From IMG/VR virus record IMGVR_UViG_3300037245_000684, positions 1 through 46,971 of that record: a stretch of 46,971 bases of DNA. One strand, written 5' to 3'. Positions 1 to 35,895 of the stretch are shown one piece after another (the stretch's first letter is position 1; each line of letters starts with the position of its first letter). The notes beneath the pieces are model-generated. The model worked only from the letters and a program-made list of their open reading frames with translations. It did not search any database and had not been told where the DNA came from. Source of the stretch: a virus. Position numbers and translations under genes: made by a program.

Positions 1-127
1 TCTGCGGGCGTCTCACTTTTCAGCGTCCTTGCACGAGCTTCGGCAATACCTCTCTGTATGTCCTGACGGCTCTTATTCCAGTATACATGCTTCAATGATT
101 CGCTGAATTGGAAGAAGTCCTTGCCGA
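1..127. repeat. Terminal direct repeat, left copy (circular contig overlap)
   Basis: These 127 bases are identical to 46845-46971. An exact overlap of 127 is what a de Bruijn assembler with k=127 leaves on a circular contig, so it is most simply an assembly overlap, not a biological terminal repeat. It lies inside the coding sequence of an internal virion protein, and removing one copy restores that frame exactly. Confidence 0.9.
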
Positions 128-21968: not shown

Positions 21969-22005
21969 ATATTTGATTAAATGCAAATTGTTTCTTTATT
22001 TCATG

Positions 22006-22212
22006 TCAGTGGTTTTGCCAACGCAAGTAAGGGTCATCTTCGGTTTCTTCTGGTACGTGATAACCTGGAGCTTTCTTTGGTTCTTCGGCCTTCACTTTCT
22101 TTATCACACCAAAACCGTATTTTCCTACGCACAGTCCGCTAAAATTCACCTTTAATGGGAACCTAGCGAAGTCTAACAGGTTGAACTTCCAGAATATCGG
22201 GCCTCTAATCAT
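22006..22212 (-). CDS. Early small protein of unknown function (68 aa)
   Basis: Starts MIRGPIFWKFNLLDFARFPLK after an AAGGAG site and ends in an acidic, Pro-rich tail ('EEPKKAPGYHVPEETEDDP'). There are no Cys clusters or membrane segments. It is the last gene before the terminator. No family recognised; a small host-takeover protein is possible from position only. Confidence 0.6.
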   Translation of the reverse strand: MIRGPIFWKFNLLDFARFPLKVNFSGLCVGKYGFGVIKKVKAEEPKKAPGYHVPEETEDDPYLRWQNH

Positions 22213-32829: not shown

Positions 32830-33273
32830 ATGAAGTATAGCACAAAAAGAAGTTTGCCGGGGAAAGTTAAGCCTCAGATAGTTGGCGAGCAGATCGAGAA
32901 ACTCAAAGCAAGGTTTGGGCATATAACCCCTGATATGCTCGTTAAAGAAGCTACCAAGAAAAGGTCACCTCTACATGGCTGCTTTACATGGGATGACAAA
33001 AAGGCCGGCGTATTACGACGATTAGACGAAGCTCGTTACTTGCTCCGCATGATTACCGTGGAAGTCGAAACAGAAGACGATCCTATTGTTACGAGGGCGT
33101 TCGTGTCGGTGACCGAGGAGTCAATTTATACCACGATAGAATCAGCACTCGCCGATGATGACATGCGAGAAAGCCTGTTGAATCAGGCAAAGAAAGAATT
33201 GCGGTCTTTTAAATTTAAGTATTCACAGTTGAAAGAATTGGCCGTTGTCTTTTCGGCTATTGAGAATGTATAG
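32830..33273 (+). CDS. 'SPLHxxFxWDD' phage protein directly upstream of the pentamer array (147 aa)
   Basis: The core 'ITPDMLVKEATKKRSPLHGCFTWDDKKAGVLRRLDEARYLLRMITVEV' (residues ~32-80) belongs to a widespread but uncharacterised phage family with the pattern SPLH..F.WDD..A....RL..AR.LiR. The N-terminus suggests a helix-turn-helix; the last ~40 residues are a basic helix ('LNQAKKELRSFKFKYSQLKE'). Its stop codon TAG at 33271-33273 is 1 nt before the first TCAG of the array, so array and gene are contiguous. It may be a partner of the array/220-aa protein. Confidence 0.75.
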   Translation: MKYSTKRSLPGKVKPQIVGEQIEKLKARFGHITPDMLVKEATKKRSPLHGCFTWDDKKAGVLRRLDEARYLLRMITVEVETEDDPIVTRAFVSVTEESIYTTIESALADDDMRESLLNQAKKELRSFKFKYSQLKELAVVFSAIENV

Positions 33274-33274
33274 C

Positions 33275-33694
33275 TCAGGTTCGTCGTGTTCCGGTTAGTT
33301 TCGTCACGTCAGTTAAGTCGGGATAAGGTGCGTTTGGGTAAGTTTGATTGCGTCTTGTCAGTCAAGTTGAGTTTTGCTCAGTCGAGGCTAGTTATGTTGT
33401 GTTGCGTTGAGTCAGTCGGGTTCAGGTGGGCTATGTTCAGTTGCGTTTAGTTTGGTTATGTCAGTTGGGTCGGGCTATGTCCAGTTCCGTTGCGTTATGT
33501 TCTGTCAGTCACGTCGCGTTAGGTTCAGTTATGATGCGTTGAGTTCAGTTTTGTCAGTCAAGTCGGGATAAGTAGTGTTGTGTTTAGTTAAGTCAGTCAA
33601 GTTATGACATGTAGCGTTCAGTTGAGTTAAGTTGATTTATGTTCCGTCAGTTATGTCGGGTTAAGCTGAGTTGCGGTACGTTCCGTCGAGTCAG
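33275..33694 (+). repeat. Pentanucleotide-period array: ten TCAG tetramers separating nine runs of (NYNNG)6-10
   Basis: The 420-bp stretch parses completely as TCAG-(NYNNG)n with n = 6, 9, 10, 9, 8, 9, 7, 10, 8 and a final TCAG. TCAG starts at 33275, 33309, 33358, 33412, 33461, 33505, 33554, 33593, 33647 and 33691. Of 76 pentamers, 74 end in G (exceptions TTTGA, TTGAT), 74 have a pyrimidine second, and 61 start with T; positions 3 and 4 are free. Units such as TCGGG, TTGCG, TTATG and TTCAG recur. All frames on both strands contain stops, so it is non-coding. It lies in one transcription unit between the 147-aa and 220-aa genes with no terminator visible. Confidence 0.9.
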
Positions 33695-33726
33695 TTAAAT
33701 TATAATTTTATTAAAGGGTTAGAAAG

Positions 33727-34389
33727 ATGGCAAAGAAAAAAGCAGTAGAAACAAAAATCGTAGAGATTCACGCATTGAATCGCAAACAGTTAACCGTTAA
33801 TATCGTTGGCGATACACCTTTATTCGTCCACCGGCTGCCTGCAAAGCTCAAGATCGAGTTTGAGGCAAGGAATATGGGTAAGGCAATGCCAAAGAACAAG
33901 GTCAGAGATAAGCAGGTTGAGTTCTGCGAATCCCTGTACTGGCTAGACAAGGCTGGCAATGAGATCGTTGCAAAGAAAGACGTTTCAAAGCATAAGTATT
34001 GGGGGTTCCCTGCGTCCGGCTTCAAGAAAGCAGCGATCAGTTCTTGCCGTGCATTCAAAAGTATTAAGATGACAGAAATGCGAGGAGCTTTCCATGTAAA
34101 CGGTCGATATGTAATGATCGAGGGATCGCCGAGAATCCAGCAAGAGCAGGGATGTGACGGTATCTGGGTTCGCGAAGGCGGCAAAGGACCTGGAACCGGA
34201 ACGCCAAATATCCGGTATCGTGCGGAATATCCTGAATGGTCTGCAAAGCTCAATATTACTTACAATGGTAATATGATTACAGCAGAGCAGATATTCAACC
34301 TCTTTAATACTGCCGGGTTCAGTGTTGGAGTTGGCGAGGATCGTCCAGATAAGAGCGGTGGGACCGGTGGAATGTTCCATGTAGAATAA
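33727..34389 (+). CDS. RAMP/Cas7-like phage protein downstream of the array (220 aa), hypothesised
   Basis: Visible features are 'VNIVGDTPLFVHRL' (24-37), 'YWGFPASGFKKAAISSCRAF' (91-110), 'MRGAFHVNGRYVMIEG' (118-133), 'NIRYRAEYPEWSAKLNITYN' (161-180) and 'FNTAGFSVGVGEDRPDKSGG' (193-212). The order TPL..H, then G.P.s.fK.A..s, then a C-terminal Gly-rich loop resembles RAMP proteins (Cas7, Csm3, Cmr), where these are an RRM strand, the 'PGSSLKGALRS' helix and the RNA-contacting G-loop. It belongs to a common uncharacterised phage family. The resemblance is by eye and needs structure prediction. The gene starts 32 bp after the array, with AAAGGG as ribosome site, and is followed by a terminator. 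Confidence 0.55.
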   Translation: MAKKKAVETKIVEIHALNRKQLTVNIVGDTPLFVHRLPAKLKIEFEARNMGKAMPKNKVRDKQVEFCESLYWLDKAGNEIVAKKDVSKHKYWGFPASGFKKAAISSCRAFKSIKMTEMRGAFHVNGRYVMIEGSPRIQQEQGCDGIWVREGGKGPGTGTPNIRYRAEYPEWSAKLNITYNGNMITAEQIFNLFNTAGFSVGVGEDRPDKSGGTGGMFHVE

Positions 34390-35134: not shown

Positions 35135-35191
35135 ATGCAAGGCTGGATAAAACTACATAGAAAGCTGATAGAATGCCACAAGGACGAATAA
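35135..35191 (+). pseudogene. Remnant start of a replisome-organiser-type gene (18 codons)
   Basis: ATG 35135, with AAGGA upstream, encodes MQGWIKLHRKLIECHKDE and stops at 35191. 'M.GWIKLHRKll' is the typical first line of phage replisome-organiser/initiator proteins, but it ends and the real initiator gene starts in another frame at 35173. It looks like a recombination joint between two initiator types, or a short translated leader coupling the initiator. Confidence 0.45.
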
Positions 35192-35895
35192 TACTAAAGT
35201 CAATATGCCAAAGCAAGAAATTGTCGCAGCTTAAAAGCGATGGCGCAAGACTTTTGTACACTTGGTTGCTCCCAAACTTGGACATTCAAGGGTGTTTCTC
35301 TGGCGACGAATATGTAATCATGGGCCAGATATTCACAAGGCTCAAAAAAGCACCGGACGAAGTGACTGGATTCCTCCAAGACTTGCACGATTGCGGTTTA
35401 ATTATCTGGTATGAAGCAGATGACGATAAATTTCTACATGTTCCTGATTTCGTTACCAAACAACCACGTCTAAACCCTATTAAAGAAGCTAAATCAACGA
35501 TTCCGATGCCAACTCCCGACCTACTCCCGACTAACTCCCGACCTACTCCAGACTTACTCCCCCCAAAGCAAAGCGAAGCAAAGGAAAGCAAAGCAAAGGA
35601 AAGTAAAGTTAAAGCGAAGGACGTTTCGTTTGAATCTAAAGATTCTTGTTCTTCGGTCGCCTCGCTCGAACTCAACTTCTACGATGGAGCGTGTGAGATA
35701 TTCAAGATCAAAAAGCCCGCTGACCATACAACACTGCGAAACGTAGCAGAGTTTTTAGGAAAGAAATACGAGTTTGATGATAAGATTTTCAAGAAAGTAC
35801 AGAAAGTTGCAATAGAAAGCGTTGGCGGTAATGTTCCAATAGCTCTTTTCATGAGCAGGATGAAATCAGAATTTGATTATCGGAAACCAGAATAA
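35173..35895 (+). CDS. Winged-helix replication initiator-like protein (240 aa)
   Basis: Residues 1-105 ('KSICQSKKLSQLKSDGARLLYTWLLPNLDIQGCFSGD...VTGFLQDLHDCGLIIWYEADDDKFLHVPDFVTKQPRLN') follow the common phage initiator winged-helix pattern in which 'sk.l..Ls..arlLyt.L...aD..Gr' is followed by a small beta wing. A Pro/Lys/Ser/Glu-rich linker (~110-150) precedes a C-terminal helical domain, the usual place for helicase-loader binding. It probably opens the origin and recruits host helicase; no phage helicase or polymerase is encoded. Confidence 0.75.
   Translation: MPQGRIILKSICQSKKLSQLKSDGARLLYTWLLPNLDIQGCFSGDEYVIMGQIFTRLKKAPDEVTGFLQDLHDCGLIIWYEADDDKFLHVPDFVTKQPRLNPIKEAKSTIPMPTPDLLPTNSRPTPDLLPPKQSEAKESKAKESKVKAKDVSFESKDSCSSVASLELNFYDGACEIFKIKKPADHTTLRNVAEFLGKKYEFDDKIFKKVQKVAIESVGGNVPIALFMSRMKSEFDYRKPE

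Follow-up and report, generated by a model that had tools for sequence, protein, structure and literature searches.

The region spanning positions 33275 to 33694 of the window (the whole 46,971-base stretch of DNA analysed, an IMG/VR-type virus record whose minus strand carries tail, capsid and terminase genes) very probably corresponds to an array of guide RNAs belonging to a VIPR (Viral Interference Programmable Repeat) system carried by a phage. VIPR was described in Escherichia phage SUSP1 and in a P. fulva prophage, in which NN dinucleotides of the RNA guide a RAMP protein to DNA via a gapped NNxNN code (PMC13142463, 2026); it has been proposed to be ancestral to CRISPR and phages appear to use it against rival phages. 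The assignment relies on the profile match of the neighbouring 220-aa protein to PDB 36pp and on its Csm3/Cas7-like predicted fold (see below). The features that define a VIPR array, namely a constant triplet and hypervariable NN dinucleotides with a 5-nt period beside vipr, are all present at the locus. The strict GGY of the characterised type II is not found, 7 of the 76 units having G at that position and 61 having U; because the definition admits GGY "or a related consensus" (PMC13142463), the locus counts as a variant within VIPR on account of its GUY triplet. The locus is a real, divergent member of this recently described kind and does not call for a separate category.

Optimal segmentation resolved 33275-33694 into 76 NYNNG pentamers and 10 TCAG tetramers that account for every base, with G at the pentamer end in 74/76, a pyrimidine at position 2 in 74/76 and T first in 61/76, and the counts given in an earlier note on this DNA were recovered exactly. 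On the plus strand, the first TCAG is located at 33275..33278 and the others end at 33312, 33361, 33415, 33464, 33508, 33557, 33596, 33650 and 33694, bounding nine modules of, in order, 6, 9, 10, 9, 8, 9, 7, 10 and 8 pentamers. The 5-nt phase is not due to chance: the segmentation cost of the array is 15.5 versus 96.3 +/- 3.8 for 500 dinucleotide-preserving shuffles, which never reproduced it (minimum 79.9), and an NYNNG-array detector scored 124.8 at 33275-33694 versus a maximum of 14.2 over 62 strands simulated with an order-2 Markov model. No second NYNNG array with a score of at least 20 was detected in the window. The borders previously reported also hold in the sequence and its ORFs, with the array starting 1 nt past the stop of a 147-aa ORF (end 33273) and ending 32 nt ahead of the ATG (33727) of a 220-aa ORF; this gap (33695..33726, plus strand) carries an AAAGGG ribosome-binding-like site. 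No ORF of at least 60 aa overlaps the array, no promoter-like site was detected for it beyond shuffled expectation, and Rfam gave no credible match, hammerhead ribozyme included.

Tandem Repeats Finder reported loose periods of 39 bp and 44 bp in the array, as might be left by a functionless tandem repeat degenerating after replication slippage or by a decayed coding sequence. Such an origin is hardly conceivable, the constant positions being kept in 74/76 units while the NN positions span 15 of the 16 dinucleotides, and the same grammar being found beside vipr in several phyla in sequences that cannot be aligned. A telomere-like repeat was considered and dropped, as was a RecT/RecA loading site, a recombination-protein role listed among the candidates of the earlier note and for which no support was found.

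The gene that follows the array (33727..34389, plus strand) falls in the unannotated phrog_4652 and encodes a predicted RAMP-fold guide-binding protein of 220 aa. A profile (A1) made from six relatives, an alignment of six rows that is too diverse for locus scans, had a single match in the PDB, 36pp_D, "SUSP1 Vipr protein" (E=2.6e-10). The AlphaFold2 model (pLDDT 71.8, pTM 0.70) had Csm3/Cas7-type RAMPs as its best PDB matches (best E 1.7e-4, TM about 0.4) and also matched viral proteins, one of which is annotated as a Cas-associated RAMP; the C-terminus is Gly-rich (GVGEDRPDKSGGTGG). Profile and model together point to this product being Vipr, a minimal RAMP homologue, which would most likely be the protein with a 5-nt footprint that the earlier note had put forward. 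Distant relatives (about 25-40% identity) were found in Gordonia, Mycobacterium and cyanobacterial phages, in alphaproteobacterial plasmids, in one IMG/VR contig and in three microbial genomes; among 395 genomes of the class to which the Bacteroidota locus L009 belongs, vipr was detected only in L009's own genome.

The gene that precedes the array (32830..33273, plus strand; phrog_15946) encodes the 147-aa protein, predicted to be vipr-associated (vap-like) and carrying the motif LHxxFxWDDxxAxxxxRxxxA. Its homologues, in which LHxxFxWDDxxA is conserved, occur close to vipr in L001-L005, L007 and L009, and its model (pLDDT 79.0) had no significant fold match in the PDB. Searches of Pfam, NCBIfam and PADLOC gave no match for either the 147-aa or the 220-aa protein, both of which fall in PHROGs of unknown function. 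A class 1 CRISPR-Cas system was rejected, since the locus shows no array of identical repeats and spacers, and Pfam and PADLOC gave no Cas match for the neighbours tested.

As the earlier note had predicted, comparable arrays were found beside homologues of these two proteins, in phages, in prophage-like loci and in plasmids from several phyla. Arrays adjacent to vipr and on the same strand occur in Gordonia phages (UmaThurman, Pipp, ODay and Ecliptus), Mycobacterium phages, a cyanobacterial phage (Cyanophage Cy-LDV1), the IMG/VR locus L001, Bacteroidota (L007 and L009) and alphaproteobacterial replicons (Paracoccus, Sulfitobacter and Rhodoplanes plasmids). These arrays are runs of (G/T)YNNG pentamers interrupted by 4-nt units, which are GCAG in actinophages, the cyanophage and L001, GCGG in the Paracoccus and Sulfitobacter plasmids and TCAG in the window, and vipr, array and accessory gene are arranged differently from one lineage to another. 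The scaffold is predominantly GGY/NN in the 13 other arrays versus GUY/NN in the window. In an array survey of 817 kb, made up of 12 whole virus records, seven unrelated contigs, half of SUSP1 and the window itself, all arrays scoring at least 20 adjoin vipr with the exception of a marginal one in Brocalys (21989-22082, score 20.3), which, since the viruses tested had been picked for carrying vipr, shows clustering of arrays at vipr rather than their absence from vipr-less genomes.

Several of the related loci depart from this organization. In an archaeal MAG, a Vipr homologue (L008:3998-4594) has no NYNNG array detected nearby and may use another consensus, while in the Pseudomonas aeruginosa prophage LESphi2 (L015:2191-2490) pentamer arrays without regular tetramer punctuation occur upstream of a vipr relative. 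The array of a Bacteroidota MAG (L007:5116-5300) has almost no tetramers and contains runs of 13 and 16 units, which points to a small number of longer guides. In Mycobacterium phage Gorge, vipr and the accessory gene lie in one ORF (gp54, L031:1727-2944) with the vipr homology split in two pieces, which is consistent with a frameshift or a fusion. Finally, the annotated hypothetical proteins UmaThurman gp40 (L002:4628-4951), Pipp gp43 (L013:3614-3883) and Clifton and Donkeykong gp048 (L025:1120-1308 and L027:1007-1393) coincide for the most part with guide arrays and probably do not represent real genes. Elsewhere in the window, tandem repeats of 11 bp (ACTCCCGACCT) and of 5 bp (CAAAG) occur at 35511-35608 inside a replication-initiation-like gene (35173-35895) and may possibly represent an iteron-type origin within a gene, as in lambda O.

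Comparison of close relatives bears on the role of the tetramers. Variants of a single array are present in ten mycobacteriophages of cluster F1 and differ by entire modules bounded by GCAG: ByChance is missing exactly one module of 59 nt (11 pentamers and a tetramer) when compared to BobaPhett and Mattes, and Donkeykong has two additional modules of 59 and 54 nt when compared to Brocalys, Clifton and Pippy. Single-pentamer changes within modules were also found. The units of gain and loss are thus mostly tetramer-bounded and resemble CRISPR spacers in this respect, and because ten arrays differ in this way the tetramers are taken to delimit guide modules; that the tetramer-bounded modules are themselves the guides is likely. 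Alternatively, the TCAG of a VIPR array might delimit nothing, vrRNAs overlapping and running across tetramers that would act as units with a single N or would displace the target register by one. For VIPR, "staggered arrays with overlapping vrRNAs" have been mentioned, and the modules of the window (6-10 pentamers) are mostly no longer than the 9-16 pentamers reported per vrRNA (PMC13142463). This arrangement is possible but distinctly less likely than delimitation, given that arrays of close relatives gain or lose exactly tetramer-bounded modules and that modules have a lineage-specific start after the tetramer, GA in L001 (5/6) and TC in L022 (5/5). Under delimitation by tetramers, we hypothesize that the tetramer acts by throwing the Vipr filament out of its 5-nt register.

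The earlier note described positions 3 and 4 of the pentamers as varying freely, which is not quite the case, their composition being biased towards that of codon positions 1-2. The NN pairs of the window fit codon positions 1-2 in sense with a gain of 11.0 bits over genomic dinucleotides (p=5e-5), the other five phases all being negative, and the gain reaches 20.8 bits when compared to NN drawn from other [TG]YNNG occurrences in the window. The signature is found in antisense in the Gordonia arrays (+7 to +11 bits) and in sense in the Rhodoplanes array (+16.4 bits), while several other arrays are neutral; the coding model was built from the arrays' own replicons and not from targets. Such a resemblance is expected if modules derive from coding sequence with skips on the wobble base, and skips in natural VIPR targets do fall on codon wobble positions (PMC13142463). 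The signature supports a guide function while pointing to no particular target. Together with the Vipr neighbour and the conserved arrays, it favours the candidate of the earlier note in which a guide-like RNA carries two informative bases per unit, the VIPR family not having been recognised there.

TRAP, too, recognises triplets with two variable bases between them, and the array might instead be a structural or regulatory RNA, or a DNA binding site, read without any guiding by a TRAP-like ring or by another RNA-binding protein with a 5-nt step. The unremarkable secondary structure of the array (z=0.11) would fit this reading. It is nonetheless very improbable and was dropped, the array being next to a Vipr/RAMP homologue and both the codon signature of its NN pairs and the module-wise variation among relatives being needless for a mere scaffold.

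Regarding targets of the putative guides, exact NNxNN searches with guides 3, 8, 6 and 4 gave no match in 2.9 million viral contigs, and a mismatch-tolerant search with 67 guides and skips of 0-3 in 0.87 Mb of sequence gave nothing convincing, the top skip-1 matches having been pre-selected by pattern scan. A guide that is conserved among mycobacteriophages of cluster F1 had seven matches, in contigs of 37-49% GC of which none was recognisably mycobacterial; these were rejected as targets, their number being near chance expectation. With a match of 18-20 exact letters demanded and no host to direct the search, the absence of targets is weak evidence against guiding. Terminase relatives are mostly phages of Gammaproteobacteria with less than 40% identity and there is no close DNA relative, so that no host was assigned.

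RNA binding, the 1-nt skip rule and repression have been demonstrated for other VIPRs (PMC13142463). Beside the array, the Vipr homology, the conserved locus, the module-wise variation in relatives and the codon signature, all observed here, we infer how the array would be expressed and processed, what it would target and how TCAG would act. The array would be transcribed on the plus strand, and copies of the 220-aa Vipr would assemble into a filament on this RNA, each subunit covering 5 nt, gripping the constant G-U-Y positions and leaving its NN exposed. A module between two TCAG tetramers (6-10 NN pairs) would represent one guide and pair with NNxNNxNN-type DNA in which the skipped bases lie mostly at codon wobble positions, and the complex may silence genes of competing phages or prophages. 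With a filament counting 5-nt steps, a 4-nt TCAG step would break the register and so start or end a guide, marking guide boundaries in an array devoid of tails. A structured 3' tail per vrRNA is a type II feature, other types having other array architectures (PMC13142463), and there is no space for a tail of the SUSP1 type either between modules or in the 33695..33726 gap. The chances are about even that the locus is a VIPR variant combining a GUY code with a register-breaking tetramer, with about nine tail-less guides in one 420-nt RNA. It is likewise evenly balanced whether GUY code and punctuation together constitute a functional variant not yet described: the main text of PMC13142463 makes no mention of Gordonia, Mycobacterium or tetranucleotides, and its supplementary figures may already cover part of this.

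Three elements appear to be new in these comparisons of sequences: a GUY/NN scaffold where 13 other arrays use GGY/NN, tetramers as probable delimiters of guide modules, from ten mycobacteriophage arrays, and window NN pairs having the codon-1-2 composition that wobble skipping predicts. They would indicate that the scaffold triplet of VIPR can change from GGY to GUY with the 5-nt NN layout kept, and they provide comparative evidence on the punctuation of compact multi-guide arrays; for wobble skipping, the support is compositional. An orthogonal Vipr/vrRNA pair could be obtained from the locus, and unannotated arrays, some of them probably mis-annotated as protein genes, could be sought with a simple grammar of NYNNG runs and [GT]C[AG]G tetramers.

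When compared to known systems, the locus shares the RAMP fold with class 1 CRISPR-Cas, in which Csm3/Cas7 filaments assemble on crRNA and, by the published mechanism, subunits periodically interrupt base pairing; class 1 systems differ by a 6-nt period, a repeat-spacer array and cas genes, whereas the period is 5 nt in the window and neither of the other two was found at the tested locus and neighbours. The punctuated loci of Gordonia and Mycobacterium phages, Cyanophage Cy-LDV1 and IMGVR_UViG_3300031994_000095 have homologues of both proteins and a contiguous array with a tetramer every ~7-17 pentamers; such loci differ from the window by GGY units, by GCAG tetramers (GCGG in two alphaproteobacterial plasmids), by gene order and by array position. 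SUSP1 VIPR has a GGY triplet instead of GUY and separate vrRNAs of ~100 nt with structured 3' tails instead of one continuous TCAG-delimited array of ~9 modules, and its accessory protein appears unrelated to the 147-aa protein. With the SUSP1 and P. fulva systems, the window nevertheless has in common a phage-borne locus, a homologous RAMP protein (PDB 36pp), a small adjacent accessory gene and, beside vipr, a noncoding RNA with a 5-nt period made of a constant triplet and a hypervariable NN.
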